From Pelagibacteraceae bacterium AG-430-P08 (GTDB taxonomy: Bacteria; Pseudomonadota; Alphaproteobacteria; Pelagibacterales; Pelagibacteraceae), in NCBI GenBank assembly GCA_003212925.1, contig QCOL01000003.1:26776-90775 (forward strand): a DNA stretch of 64,000 nt, written 5' to 3'. How positions within the stretch are numbered: the stretch's first letter is position 1; each line of letters opens with the position of its first letter. The translations under genes and the position numbers were made by a program. Shown here one piece after another: positions 4,202-47,870 of the stretch. The notes under the pieces were generated by a model. It was not told where the DNA came from and searched no databases. It was given only the letters and a program-made list of their open reading frames with translations.

Positions 4202-4475
4202 GATTGTTATTGAATCTCTAGCAATTCCTTTTATATTAATAAAGTTGGATTTCCAACTATGACGATAAACGAATTTCGTAATAACCATTGCGGACGTGGG
4301 GGCAGTACCCACCACCTCCACCATTTACAACTTATGGGGGTGAACTAGATTCGACGAGTGACTAAAGGCTATTCTTTCGTTCGGAATTGTTCCTCCGTAA
4401 AGGGCTAATTTATAATTGCTAACGAAAGTTACGCACTTGCTGCTTAATTAACTTGTTAATTAGGTAAACGGGGTT

Positions 4476-4505
4476 TGGGGCACCTGGCAACAGAACGCCC
4501 CTTTT
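4476..4505 (+). terminator. Rho-independent-like hairpin at the tmRNA 3' end
   Basis: GGGGC ... GCCCC followed by TTTT (4477-4505). Confidence 0.5.
4489..4505 (+). repeat. Direct repeat copy 1 (AACAGAACGCCCCTTTT), tmRNA 3' end; candidate att site
   Basis: Exact 17-nt match to 5308-5324. Confidence 0.85.
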
Positions 4506-4512
4506 AATAATA

Positions 4513-5070
4513 TTATTTAACTAAAAAATAAAATATTTTTTTCTTAACTTTTTTATCTAAATTAAACGTCATCCCATTTATATTTGACATACTATTGAAC
4601 CAAGCAGGTTTGTGATCCATTATCTTAAAACTATTTTTTGGTAATACTTTCCAATTATATTTTAAATAAAAAGATATTATTTTTTTTGAACAAGTCAAAA
4701 AAGAATGTGATTTAAGCATATTTAAAATTTTATTGTTAAATAACATTAAAATTTTCCCTAAACCTCTATTTCTAAACTTTTTATGTAAAATAAAACTGTC
4801 GAAATAATAATAAATAATGGATTTATTATTTATAATTGCTTTTCTTTTTCTTAATAAAGTGTAACCAACTAATTTTTTTTTAATTAGCAACATATTATTA
4901 ATATCTGTTTTTTTTACTGTTCTTTTATACCATTCTAGTTGTTTAGGAACTGTCCAAGTCCAGTATGAATTTTTTAACTTGCATATAGATAATATTTGGT
5001 TTTTTTTTAAATTTTTTGTTTTTAAAGAGATTAAAGTAATGTTTTTGTTTTGGTGTAAAATATTTTTCAT
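4513..5070 (-). CDS. GNAT-like N-acetyltransferase (insert cargo)
   Basis: Motif-A-like FRNRGLGKILM with an upstream beta-strand region (YYYFDSFILHKKF). Start chosen at MKNILHQNKNITLIS; the track starts at 5100. Confidence 0.55.
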   Translation of the reverse strand: MKNILHQNKNITLISLKTKNLKKNQILSICKLKNSYWTWTVPKQLEWYKRTVKKTDINNMLLIKKKLVGYTLLRKRKAIINNKSIIYYYFDSFILHKKFRNRGLGKILMLFNNKILNMLKSHSFLTCSKKIISFYLKYNWKVLPKNSFKIMDHKPAWFNSMSNINGMTFNLDKKVKKKIFYFLVK

Positions 5071-36020: not shown

Positions 36021-36097
36021 TGGTGGGCCCGCCAGGACTCGAACCTGGGACCAATACATTATGAGTGTACTGCTCTAACCAACTGAGCTACAGGCCC
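36021..36097 (-). tRNA. tRNA with CAU anticodon (probably Ile2, possibly elongator Met)
   Basis: GGGCCTGTAGCTCAGTTGGTTAGAGCAGTACACTCATAATGTATTGGTCCCAGGTTCGAGTCCTGGCGGGCCCACCA; cloverleaf with anticodon loop CTCATAA and encoded CCA. Confidence 0.9.
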
Positions 36098-39139: not shown

Positions 39140-39214
39140 TGGTGGGCCGTGTTGGTTACGCTCCAACTACCCCTGCAATGTCAATGCAGTACTCTACTAT
39201 TGAGCTAACGGCCC
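39140..39214 (-). tRNA. tRNA-Val (GAC), with non-canonical D- and T-loops
   Basis: GGGCCGTTAGCTCAATAGTAGAGTACTGCATTGACATTGCAGGGGTAGTTGGAGCGTAACCAACACGGCCCACCA; all four stems pair; anticodon GAC; encoded CCA; T-loop AGCGTAA; D-loop AATAGTA. Confidence 0.85.
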
Positions 39215-39217
39215 AAA

Positions 39218-41044
39218 TTAACTTTCCAAAAAGCTCTTTAATTGTTTGGATCTACTTGGATGTTTTAATTTTCTTAAAGCTTTAGCTTCTATTTGTCTAA
39301 TTCTTTCTCGGGTTACTGAAAACTGTAGTCCAACTTCCTCCAGGGTATGATCTGTATTCATTCCAACACCAAACCTCATTCTTAAAACTCTTTCCTCCCT
39401 TGGAGTTAAAGTGGATAATATCTTTGTAGTCGCTTCTCCTAAATTTGATTTTATTGCCTGTTCTAATGGTGCTAATGCTTTTGTGTCTTCAATAAAATCA
39501 CCCAAACTACTATCTTCCTCATCACCAACTGGCTTTTCTAGAGAAACTGGCTCTTTTGAAATTTTTAATACTTTTCTCACTTTATCAAGTGGCATTCTTA
39601 ACTTTTTTGCTAATTCCTCTGGGGTTGCTTCTCTTCCAAACTCACTCAATATAAGTCTCTGTGTTCTTACGATCTTGTTTATAGTTTCAATCATATGAAC
39701 TGGAATACGAATTGTTCTTGCTTGATCAGCAATAGATCTTGTTATTGCTTGTCTTATCCACCATGTAGCATATGTTGAAAACTTATATCCTCTTCTGTAT
39801 TCAAACTTATCTACAGCTTTCATTAATCCAATATTTCCTTCTTGGATTAGATCTAAAAATTGAAGACCTCTGTTGGTATATTTTTTTGCAATTGAAATAA
39901 CTAATCTAAGATTTGCTTCTACCATCTCTTTTTTTGCAATTCTCGACTCCTTTTCTCCTTTTTGAACTCTGCTAACTAATTTTTTAAAATCAGTCACAGA
40001 CATTCCTAACTTATGACTAATCTCAATTAACCTCTCTCTTATATTTTTAAAATTGTCTTTATTTTTAATGAAAAATTGCTTCCATAAGGTATTGGTATCT
40101 AAAAATTTTTTTAATTTTGGATTTATTTCATTTCCAATATAAAATTTAATAAATTCATTTCTTGGTATTTTTTGATCCATAGCCAATCTTAAAAGATTCC
40201 CCTCTAATGATATTATTTTTTTATTTTCTATATAGTGTTTTTGCACAAGGTCCTCTAATACTGATGGTGATAATTGAAGAGATTTTATACTTTCTAAAAT
40301 ACCACTTACTATTTTTTCATAACCTTTTTCTTTAGATGATGAAAAAGTCTCAGAATTTAAAACACAATCAAGTTTTTCTTTCTGGTACTTAATCAACTTA
40401 CGGTATTCTTTGGTAAGTAAATGTACTGTTTTTAAAACTTTTGGTTTTATTTCAGACTCCATTGCTGCAAGAGTTGGATTAAACTCCTCATCACTATCAT
40501 CACTAGAACTATCATCTTTTTCATCTTCTCCAGCATTCTTTTGTTTTGCACTTGGACCTGTATTTTCATCTTCCATATAATTCGTATCGATATCGATTAT
40601 TTCTCTTACAAGAATTTCATCTTTCTGTAATTTTTCATTCCAATCAAAAAATTGTTGGGCAGTTATTGGGCTCTGAGAAAGAGCAATTAACATTACATCT
40701 TTTCCCGCTTCTATTCTTTTTGCGATTGCTATCTCACCTTCTCTAGAAAGCAATTCAACACCGCCCATTTCTCTCAGATACATCCTTATTGGATCATCAC
40801 TTTTCTCTATTGTTTTGCCTTCTTCTTTAGATGAATTTTCTTTTTTTCTTAAAACTTTATAATCTGATTTTTTTTCTACCAGTGCAATTCCCTCATCCAA
40901 AATATGGATAAAAGCTTGGTTTAAGTTTTCATCTGAAAGATTTCTTTTTCCTAAAGATTTGCTCAATTCCTCATGAGTTATGAAACCACGGTGAACTCCA
41001 CGGCCCATTAATCTAGCAAACGATTTTGTAATTATTCTTTCCAC
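39218..41044 (-). CDS. rpoD: RNA polymerase primary sigma factor RpoD
   Basis: [52 protein letters not shown]. Confidence 0.97.
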
Positions 41045-43474: not shown

Positions 43475-44668
43475 TTGATCAAAAAAGTAAAAAAAGCTCA
43501 CATAAAAAATTCTCAAAAAAATACTGGTATTTTAGTTTTAGAAAATAAGAAAATTTTTAAAGGAATCGGGATTGGATACCAGGGAGAAGCAACTGGAGAA
43601 GTTTGCTTTAATACATCATTAACAGGATACCAAGAAATAATATCTGACCCATCTTATGCTGGGCAAATAATAAATTTTACCTTTCCTCACATTGGAAATG
43701 TGGGGACAAATAAAGAAGATTTCGAGTCTGATAAAATATGGACTAAAGGTGTTATTTTTAATTCTGAAATAACATCACCATCAAACTATAGATCTTTTCA
43801 ACATTTAGATACTTGGTTAAAAAAAAATAAAATAGTTGGAATTACTGGACTTGATACAAGAAGTTTAACGAATTTTATTAGAGACAAAGGGGCTCCAAAA
43901 GGAACCATTGCTCACTCAAAAAAAAGTAAATTTAATATTAACAAACTTACTAATTCTACAATTAAATGGAGTGGGCTAAAAAATTTAGATCTAGCAGAAA
44001 AAGTTACTACACAAAAAAATTATATTTGGAAAGGGCTTAAAACTTGGAGAAAAGAACATGGCTTTAGAAAAAATAATCAAAATTCATTTCATGTAGTCGC
44101 CATAGATTATGGAATAAAAAAAAATATTTTAAGATATTTTTCTGATTTTAAATGTAAAGTTACTGTAGTTTCATGTAAAACCACTGCAGAAAAAATTTTA
44201 TCTCTAAAACCTAATGGTGTCTTCTTATCTAATGGTCCTGGTGATCCAGCTGCGACAGGAAAATATGCTATTAAAATAATTCAAGATCTTATTAAAAAGA
44301 AAATCCCATTATTTGGTATTTGCCTTGGTCATCAGATACTCGCACTTGCATTAGGTGGTAAAACAAAAAAAATGAAGTTAGGTCACAGAGGAGCAAATCA
44401 TCCAGTTAAAAATTTAATTAATGAAAATGTCGAGATTACTAGCCAAAATCATGGTTTTGAAGTTGTTACAGAAAATTTACCAAAAAATATTCAGATTACC
44501 CATAAATCTTTATTCGATAATAGTATTGAGGGAATAAGATTAAAAAATAATCCAGTATTCTCAGTTCAATATCACCCGGAATCAAATCCAGGACCACAAG
44601 ATAGTGTCTATTTATTCCAGGAATTTATTAACAACATGAAAAAAAATGGCAAAAAGAAAAGATCTTAA
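43475..44668 (+). CDS. carA: Carbamoyl-phosphate synthase small subunit (TTG start)
   Basis: [44 protein letters not shown] glutaminase motif. Confidence 0.95.
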
Positions 44669-47600
44669 AAAAATTTTAGTTGTAGGCGCTGGCCCAATTA
44701 TCATTGGTCAAGCATGTGAATTTGATTATTCAGGTACCCAGGCTTGTAAGGCATTAAAAGACGAAGGATATAAAGTTGTTTTAATTAATTCAAATCCAGC
44801 AACAATTATGACAGATCCTGATGTTGCTGATAAAACTTACATTGAACCTATTACTTTAGAAGTTTTAGAAAAAATTCTCAAAAAAGAAAAACCAGATGCA
44901 ATTCTTCCTACTATGGGTGGCCAAACTGCTCTTAACCTTGCAATGGAAGCAGAGAAAAAAGGAATTTTAAAAAAATATAAAATTGAATTAATTGGTGCAA
45001 ATTCTAAAGCTATTTCCAATGCAGAAGACAGAAAGAAGTTTAGAAAAAATATGATTGATATTGGTTTAGATCTTCCAAAATCTGAAATTGTGAACAATAT
45101 AAATCAAGCATCAAAAGTTTTAAAAAAAATTGGTTTGCCAGCAATAATTAGGCCAGCTTTTACGCTTGGAGGTCTAGGAGGAGGAATAGCAAAAAATAAA
45201 AAGGATTACCTTAAAATTATCAAAAATGGCTTACACGAGTCTCCTGTAAGCCAAGTACTAGTTGAAGAGTGCTTAGAAGGTTGGAAAGAATTTGAAATGG
45301 AGGTCATAAGGGATAAAAAAGATAATTGTATAATTATTTGTTCAATAGAAAATGTAGATCCAATGGGAATACATACTGGAGACTCCGTCACAGTTGCTCC
45401 TGCATTAACTTTAACTGATAAGGAATATCAAGTAATGCGAAATGCTTCTATTGCATGTTTGAGGAAAATTGGAGTTGAGACGGGCGGCTCAAATGTTCAA
45501 TTTGCAATAAATCCTAAAAATGGGCGAATGGTAATAATTGAGATGAACCCTAGAGTATCAAGATCATCAGCGCTTGCATCAAAAGCAACTGGATTTCCGA
45601 TTGCCAAAGTTGCTGCAAAACTTGCAGTTGGATATACGTTAGATGAATTAAAAAATGAAATTACTAAAGTTACTCCAGCATCATTTGAGCCAAGTATAGA
45701 CTATGTAGTAACCAAAATTCCAAGATTTACTTTTGAAAAATTTTCAACTTCTCCCGCAATTTTAGGCACATCAATGAAATCAGTAGGGGAAGCAATGGCA
45801 ATCGGAAGAAATTTTAAAGAGTCTCTTCAAAAAGCATTGGTTTCTCTTGAGACTGGTTTTTCAGGATTAGACAGAATATTTAATCTAAATAAAAGACAAA
45901 TTGAAAAAAAACTAAAAGAAAATATTCCAAATAAAATCTTACTTGTTGCAGAAGCAATGAGGAAAAAAATTAAGCTTAAAAGAATTTATAATTTATCAAA
46001 AATCGATCCGTGGTTCTTAAACCAAATTAAAGAAATAATAGATAATGAAATTAAGATCAAAATTAATGGATTGCCTAAAAATTTTGATGATTTTAACAAA
46101 ATAAAATCAATAGGTTTTTCAGATAAAAAGCTTTCTGAGCTATCAAATTTATCTGAAGACATTGTGAGAAAAAAAAGAACTACACTCAAAATTTTACCAG
46201 TATTTAAAAAAGTTGATACTTGTGCTGCAGAATTCAAATCCTTCACACCATACATGTACTCAACATATCAAAGAAATTTTTCAATAAATTCAGAATGTGA
46301 AGCCGACCCGAGTGTTAAGAAAAAAATTATAATATTAGGTGGAGGGCCCAATAGAATAGGACAAGGAATAGAATTTGATTATTGCTGTTGTCAAGCCAGT
46401 TTTGCCTTAAAGGCTGCTGGTTTCGAAACAGTTATGGTTAATTGTAATCCTGAGACTGTCTCAACAGATTATGACACTAGCGATAGATTATATTTTGAGC
46501 CTTTAAAAGAAGAATATGTTTTCAATATTATAAAGAGAGAGAAGGAAAAAGGGAATTTAGTCGGTATCATTACGCAATTTGGTGGTCAAACTCCAATTAA
46601 ATTAGCAAAATTTTTACATGATAATAATCTTCCAATTTTAGGAACTCAATACTCATCTATTGATCTAGCAGAAGATAGAGATAGATTTAGAAAACTTTTA
46701 GAAAAATTAAACTTAAATCAAGCTGAAAGTGGAATTGCAAAAAATTTTAAACAAGCAATTGAAATATCTGAAAAAATTGGTTTGCCTTTAATGGTTAGAC
46801 CTTCATACGTTCTTGGGGGAAGGGCGATGGAAATTGTTTATGAAAAAAGTCAATTAAAAAATTTTGTAGAGGAAGCATTTAAAGCAGCAGAAAAAAATCC
46901 AATTCTTATTGATAAATTTTTAGATCATGCAATGGAGGTAGATGTTGATGCTATATCAGATGGTAAAGAAGTGCATGTGGCTGGCATCATGCAGCATATA
47001 GAGGAAGCAGGAATTCATTCTGGGGACTCGGCTTGCAGCTTGCCGCCTGTTTCCATAAAACCTTTTTTACTAAAAGAAATTGAGAAACAAACAAAAAATT
47101 TAGCCCTGGCTCTGAAAGTAAAAGGTTTCATGAATGTTCAATTTGCAATAAAAAAAGATGAAATTTTTGTTATTGAAGTAAATCCAAGAGCTAGTCGGAC
47201 TGTTCCATTTGTATCAAAAGCTAAAGGAATATCATTAGCAAAGATAGCCTCGAGAGTTATGGCTGGTGAAAAACTTTCAAAATTTAATTTAAAAGACAAA
47301 TCTAAAGGAATGTTTGCCGTGAAAGAGGCTGTTTTTCCGTTTAATAAATTTCCAAACAGTGATCTATTGTTAGGTCCAGAAATGAAATCAACTGGAGAGG
47401 TGATGGGATTTGACAAAAATTTTGGAATGGCATACGCAAAAAGCCAGATAGCATCGTCTAATTCGTTACCTACAAATGGACTGGCTTTTTTATCATTAAA
47501 AGATTCTCATAAAGATGAAGGTTTAGAGCTTGCAAAAGAACTCTTGAAACTAAAATTCCATTTGTGTGCTACAAAAGGAACAGCCGAATACATTAAAAAA

Positions 47601-47870
47601 CATGGCATGAGTTGTAAAATTATAAATAAAGTAAGTAGTGGATCACCTCATATCGTTGATGTTCTCGACTCCAAAAAAATAGCTTTGGTAATTAATACTG
47701 GTGGGGGCAATACAGAACATAGATTAAACGATGCTATTGCTTTAAGAAGAGCAACACTTAAAAATAAAGTGCCCTACTGTACTAATATGTCAACAGCGCT
47801 TGCATGTATTGAGGGTATTAAATCACTTAAAACAAAAAAATTAGAGGTGACGTCTCTACAAAATATTTAA
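44646..47870 (+). CDS. carB: Carbamoyl-phosphate synthase large subunit
   Basis: 1074 aa, two ATP-grasp halves; [19 protein letters not shown]. Confidence 0.97.

Follow-up and report, generated by a model that had tools for sequence, protein, structure and literature searches.

A linked A18/G55 substitution at the elbow of a SAR11 tRNA-Val(GAC) and its recurrence in tRNA-Phe, tmRNA and phage tRNAs

Position 55 of tRNA has been described as a universally conserved U or Ψ and serves as a textbook landmark. A tRNA-Val(GAC) gene of Pelagibacteraceae bacterium AG-430-P08 (SAR11) carries G at this position and A at position 18, which raises the question of whether it is a decaying gene or a working tRNA with a differently built elbow. 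The gene lies in a stretch of 64,000 nucleotides of contig QCOL01000003.1, which we refer to here as ‘the window’, and the genome (G000) measures 1.02 Mb and is 84% complete. The features around the gene are as follows.

39140 to 39214, minus strand: tRNA-Val(GAC) with encoded CCA (ARAGORN and Rfam RF00005)
39195 to 39201, minus strand: its D-loop, AATAGTA (from sequence; register from the stems and G19-C56)
39180 to 39182, minus strand: its anticodon, GAC (ARAGORN)
39156 to 39162, minus strand: its T-loop, AGCGTAA (from sequence; other tRNAs of the genome have canonical TTCGANT)
39218 to 41044, minus strand: rpoD-like sigma factor open reading frame just upstream (ORF list, named by sequence inspection)
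43475 to 47870: carA/carB, with the rpoD-like frame the marker of the orthologous tRNA-Val(GAC) locus in relatives
36021 to 36097, minus strand: tRNA-Met(CAT) with a canonical elbow, the comparator (ARAGORN and sequence)

Both ARAGORN and Rfam called a tRNA with anticodon GAC at 39140-39214 on the minus strand, the latter at 53.6 bits (cut-off 29). Read on that strand, element by element, its first half is GGGCCGT TA GCTC AATAGTA GAGT A CTGCA TTGACAT TGCAG and its second half GGGTA GTTGG AGCGTAA CCAAC ACGGCCC A CCA. The D-loop numbers as A14 A15 U16 A18 G19 U20 A21 (A18 at 39198, G19 at 39197) and the T-loop as A54 G55 C56 G57 U58 A59 A60 (A54 at 39162, G55 at 39161, C56 at 39160, G57 at 39159, U58 at 39158), base for base as the initial annotation had read them; the canonical state that it gave to the CAU tRNA at 36021 was likewise correct, and its statement that all four stems pair perfectly holds for full pairing, with the reservation that G10-U25 is a wobble. 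With its encoded CCA and YU at 32-33 beside the GAC anticodon, the gene meets the sequence criteria of an elongator tRNA. It fails those of a canonical elbow (G18, U55 and U54-A58), having A18, G55 and A54/U58, and retains the canonical G19-C56, R57 and G53-C61. Positions 15/48 are A-A, which is no usual Levitt pair; the swapped tRNA-Phe described below has G-C there.

The same 18/55 substitution was found in a second tRNA of this genome.

G000:C2:109111-109182 (L017), outside the window: tRNA-Phe(GAA), sole copy in G000, A18/G55

This tRNA-Phe has A18 in the D-loop AGGAGTA and G55 in the T-loop TGCGAAT and keeps U54/A58, and the remaining tRNAs read in G000, apart from tRNA-Thr(GGU), carry GG and TTC. 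Among the 30 tRNAs read in G012, a complete genome, A18/G55 was confined to Phe(GAA) and Val(GAC), one copy each.

We read positions 18 and 55 in 114 tRNA-Val(GAC) and tRNA-Phe(GAA) genes from 80 Pelagibacteraceae-family genomes, using a pattern that leaves both positions free; 87 genes were A18/G55, 27 were G18/U55 and none was mixed (50 vs. 3 for Val; 37 vs. 24 for Phe; 14 vs. 11 among the 25 distinct haplotypes). Swapped Val genes pair the D-loops AATAGTA or AAAAGTA with AGCGTAA or AGCGTTA, and canonical ones pair TCGGTTA, CCGGTTA or CTGGTTA with TTCGATT or TTCAATT; examples for Phe are AGGAGTA with TGCGAAT and AGTAGTA with TGCGATT (swapped), and AGTTGGTA with TTCGAGT and AGCCCGGTA with TTCAAAT (canonical). 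In the sister family, the D-loops of both tRNAs are canonical and the Val T-loops are TTCGATC or TTCGATT. The elbow state of tRNA-Phe flips among SAR11 lineages; mapped by parsimony onto a CarB tree (47 genomes), Phe requires at least seven switches and Val at least four (counts of independent pairs on supported branches, 6/6 and 4/4, merely restate these switches, as 18 and 55 always agree), and no linkage of the Val state with the Phe state was found across genomes on this tree. The covariation of 18 and 55 that the initial annotation had proposed to look for thus exists. The flip of 54/58, which it had listed alongside, is separable from the 18/55 swap; swapped tRNA-Phe keeps U54/A58, several named phages combine A54/U58 with G18/U55, and the Val gene of G223 has A18/G55 with U54/A58, so that 54/58 flips separately from 18/55.

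Not every switch need be a mutation. Two genomes (G081 and G082) carry a canonical Val at the same carB locus at which relatives carry swapped orthologues (Val(GAC)-CarB spacing ~5-8 kb in G012, G067, G068, G081, G082 and G223), and canonical Val alleles of distant hosts have their T-stem and D-loop type in common. Given the mutual resemblance of the three canonical Val alleles, allele replacement by recombination is likely for some SAR11 Val switches, and independent mutational origins may therefore be fewer than the changes on the tree.

The window itself holds another RNA with the swap, which the initial annotation had compared with the tRNA.

4228 to 4538, plus strand: permuted alphaproteobacterial tmRNA, A18/G55 with G54/G58 (ARAGORN, Rfam and tmRNA comparison)
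4301 to 4307, plus strand: its T-loop, GGCAGTA, that is G54 G55 C56 A57 G58 (Rfam and tmRNA comparison)
4347 to 4348, plus strand: its A18-G19, the AG in CTAGATTCGACG (Rfam and tmRNA comparison)

The T-loop GGCRGTA with A18 G19 in the D-loop was present in 31/31 alphaproteobacterial tmRNAs (30 from across the class and the window's own), and the A18/G55 form is the Rfam consensus; G at the second T-loop position of Caulobacter tmRNA, and GG at the tmRNA T-loop of the Reclinomonas mitochondrion, were already noted in 2005 (PMC1168896). By this comparison the swap in the tmRNA is an ancient trait of the whole class, so its co-occurrence with tRNA-Val(GAC) in the window implies no link, and the tmRNA has put this 18/55 solution to use independently. 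What had been claimed as one swap in two unrelated RNAs is therefore real as to A18/G55; it does not extend to 54/58 (G-G in the tmRNA, not A-U), and tRNA-Phe makes a third RNA.

Outside SAR11, pattern searches turned up few bacterial tRNAs with the swap. An A18 D-arm pattern run over 387 alphaproteobacterial genomes matched in Pelagibacteraceae only, bar one match in G242 (L232) that we rejected as chance, the sequence there holding no tRNA, and a generic A18/G55 tRNA pattern had no match in 398 other Pseudomonadota genomes sampled; these were pattern searches, and other D-arm forms would be missed. A scan of GTDB genomes gave, among the matches listed, one outside SAR11, in a CPR bacterium and thus in another phylum.

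L436:1603-1675: Candidatus Amesbacteria tRNA-Val(GAC), D-loop AGGAGTA, T-loop TGCGAAG

Conservation within SAR11, together with the coupling (0/114 mixed) and the absence of A18/G55 tRNAs by pattern from those 398 genomes, excludes chance.

The generic pattern matched at least 120 times in viral contigs, and in the contigs with a match ARAGORN called 768 tRNAs, 124 of them with G55-C56 and of many isotypes; as these contigs were chosen for one swapped tRNA, the counts give no prevalence. We therefore left out the tRNAs fitting the search pattern and added named phages, which yielded 811 distinct unselected tRNAs. Here G55-C56 occurred with AG (A18-G19) in 45/45 cases, U55-C56 with GG in 736/743, C55-C56 with GG in 8/8, U55-U56 with GA in 10/10 and U55-A56 with GU in 2/2 (54/58: U-A 771, A-U 27, A-A 9). 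For unselected tRNAs in the contigs, the two-by-two table of AG/GG against G55/U55 read 45, 1, 0 and 614; the contigs are not independent, the unselected swaps lie on 21 of them, and the single exception is probably a mis-split D-stem. Scans of the whole viral collection for mixed forms returned nine stretches with A18/U55 and three with G18/G55, compared with at least 67 A18/G55 cases with the matching TGCRA loop; the nine look like real tRNAs, which suggests a path from G-U through A-U to A-G.

The swap was not met everywhere in viruses: none of 30 tRNAs had it in a small random set (contigs from a loose Val pattern scan, mostly chance matches, with two pattern-selected tRNAs left out), and seven named phages, retrieved by querying with the L545 contig or with a swapped tRNA-Gly, had no A18/G55 tRNA. 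The tRNA-Met of Brevundimonas phage vB_BpoS-Kikimora (ON529857) does have it (D-loop AGTCCAGTA with TGCGAAT). Of 123 phage sites matching the swapped pattern (L528-L646), ARAGORN missed 46, several of which read clearly as cloverleafs, with AGCGTTA and GGCAGCA among their T-loops; swapped phage tRNAs are probably under-annotated, and an annotation blind spot is exposed. Besides the many A18/G55 tRNAs, rarer 19-56 swaps (A-U, U-A) also occur in the IMG/VR contigs (L528-L646, L660), and in the tRNA-Cys of Erythrobacter phage vB_EliS-L02 (L655:4401-4475) both elbow pairs are replaced together (A18-U19 with G55-A56). As far as gene sequences can tell, we show that joint changes of 18 and 55 have happened repeatedly and in several RNAs that are unrelated, with 54/58 as a separate module. 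The alternative elbow with linked 18/55 that the initial annotation had suggested gains support from the SAR11 coupling and from its recurrence in tRNA-Phe, phage tRNAs and the CPR tRNA, its geometry remaining inferred.

Could the swap be an adaptation that frees the elbow from modification or protects it from nucleases? A18/G55 would remove the targets of elbow enzymes, or hide the elbow from tRNA-targeting defence, and phages would spread it. Its frequency in phage tRNAs of many isotypes speaks for this, as does one contig region (L545) in which 14/15 ARAGORN-called tRNAs are A18/G55. The loss of the TruB target (U55), which the initial annotation had predicted, follows directly from the sequence; the predicted loss of the m5U54 target applies to tRNA-Val (A54) and fails for tRNA-Phe, which keeps U54. 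Yet SAR11 lineages switch in both directions, most tRNAs within one genome remain canonical, and the annotated phage collection contains no tRNA that matches tRNA-Val(GAC), for which phage capture was accordingly rejected. We consider this explanation unlikely, though it survives better than those that follow.

A specialised tRNA serving outside the ribosome, for example in cell-wall or lipid aminoacylation, might also tolerate an odd elbow that lowers EF-Tu use. A Staphylococcus aureus tRNA-Gly isoacceptor with altered D- and T-loops offers the parallel of an unusual bacterial tRNA. This peptidoglycan tRNA-Gly is described as poorly used in translation (PMC4810233), whereas the SAR11 elbow is found in the only tRNA-Phe and, in phages, in tRNAs of many isotypes; moreover, Val and Phe switch independently. 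Such a role would call for an extra isoacceptor beside a canonical tRNA of the same anticodon, and both G000 and G012 have a sole GAC tRNA and a sole tRNA-Phe. No organism can dispense with tRNA-Phe. Since the sole tRNA-Phe is A18/G55, the swapped elbow must support translation, and we regard a non-ribosomal role as very improbable.

Slightly weaker still is the view that a decaying tRNA or pseudogene persists by chance because the genome is streamlined and tRNA-Val(UAC) is able to decode all four GUN codons. G000 does have a separate canonical Val(UAC), and a pattern search did not find tRNA-Val(GAC) in the majority of genomes from four sister genera (G061, G064, G065, G076 and others), including a complete one, which suggests that it was lost there and may be dispensable. 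Against decay, stem changes in Val are compensated and loops constant across the genus, identical copies are widespread (110 in public records, identical over the matched core and nearly all of them named Pelagibacteraceae), and both the 18/55 coupling and the same swap in single-copy tRNA-Phe would be unexpected. Unpaired stems, erratic conservation or a second intact copy would mark a pseudogene, and tRNA-Val(GAC) has none of these; the initial annotation had stated that a second canonical gene, together with absence of the form from relatives, would refute its own reading and point to a pseudogene, but neither G000 (at its 84% completeness) nor complete G012 yielded a second tRNA-Val(GAC), and the form is genus-wide. 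Judged from sequence comparison, conservation largely refutes decay, for which we leave only a slim chance. Finally, short 7-nt D-loops leave some freedom for a register error in which position 18 is really another base, but the sister family's canonical 7-nt D-loops (AGTGGTA) can be matched to AATAGTA position by position and the AG/GG switch follows base 55 across D-loops of many lengths, so that we give this reading hardly any credence.

We are thus left, with high though not complete confidence, with a functional tRNA-Val(GAC) whose elbow would be closed by A18-G55 rather than by G18-U55(Ψ55), with G19-C56 kept; this explanation includes an inferred geometry and stands without data on structure, modification, charging or expression. 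Canonically, G18 slots in between 57 and 58, where it pairs with Ψ55 beside the G19-C56 pair (PMC4810234, PMC7912444), and in other RNAs the G of a UGNRA lonepair triloop finds its partner in an A from outside the loop, which completes a composite GNRA (PMC2258182). By analogy, A18 would insert between R57 and position 58, in the usual place of G18, and form a G-A pair with G55, such that G55-C56-R57-A18 would make a composite GNRA tetraloop like those UGNRA T-loops. The swapped elbow would show the same G19-C56 face and serve ordinary translation without Ψ55 or (Gm)18, the Val form doing without T54 as well. The simplest explanation of the swap would be toggling between two near-equivalent elbow solutions, probably via a tolerated A18/U55 intermediate, with part of its spread as whole alleles; such near-neutral toggling fits the repeated two-way switching and the unlinked states of the two tRNAs.

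The covariation itself indicates only a contact between 18 and 55, and the pair geometry is inferred by analogy. In a composite GNRA the second loop base must be a G that is coupled to an outside A, which the SAR11 and phage covariation satisfies, and U first and A fifth in the loop, which tRNA-Phe and the G223 Val satisfy and Val(GAC) with A54/U58 does not; R57 is also conserved in canonical tRNAs and so does not discriminate, and A54/U58 is not obviously isosteric with U54-A58. The SAR11 Phe form (U54-G55-C56-R57-A58 with outside A18) matches the UGNRA sequence rule (PMC2258182) exactly, but sits within a tRNA elbow with G19-C56 adjoining, and the Val A54/U58 falls outside the consensus. Compared with the canonical elbow (G18-Ψ55, G19-C56 and T54-A58 in trans Watson-Crick/Hoogsteen), tRNA-Val(GAC) has in common the cloverleaf, G19-C56, R57, G53-C61 and a purine at 18, and differs in A18-G55 for G18-U55 and A54/U58 for U54/A58. 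The alphaproteobacterial tmRNA (RF01849) has A18 G19 with G55 C56 in common with it, but has G54/G58 and is a tmRNA rather than a decoding tRNA. The initiator tRNA-Met of eukaryotes, which has A54-A58, is likewise a functional tRNA with a non-U54 T-loop, but its 18-55 is canonical as far as the review describes (PMC7912444).

More broadly, one may ask whether A18-G55 defines a second stable class of tRNA elbow (composite-GNRA), at which phage tRNAs, SAR11, a CPR bacterium and alphaproteobacterial tmRNA have arrived repeatedly, needing no Ψ55 and favoured in phages through independence from host elbow modification or escape from elbow recognition. In this full form the proposal is tentative, and we would not bet on it; a benefit to phages is possible and untested. 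Because 18 and 55 change together in relatives, in a second tRNA, in the tmRNA of the class and in many phage tRNAs, A18-G55 does look like a genuine and functioning alternative way to build the elbow of a tRNA. Abundant ocean bacteria have it in their sole tRNA-Phe, and many tRNAs of phages carry it too, which shows that a second, linked solution is workable in living cells, and the natural pairs of swapped and canonical variants provide a means to ask what Ψ55, Gm18 and T54 are for. Our literature search (open-access only) found no earlier description of A18/G55 in tRNA; older selections of elbow variants were reportedly carried out in the Steinberg laboratory. The 54/58 module also varies by itself in G000, where the tRNA-Thr(GGU) (G000:C2:104916-104986, L028) has the T-loop GTCAGTA, that is G54/G58, with G18/U55 kept; this is the 54/58 state of alphaproteobacterial tmRNA.
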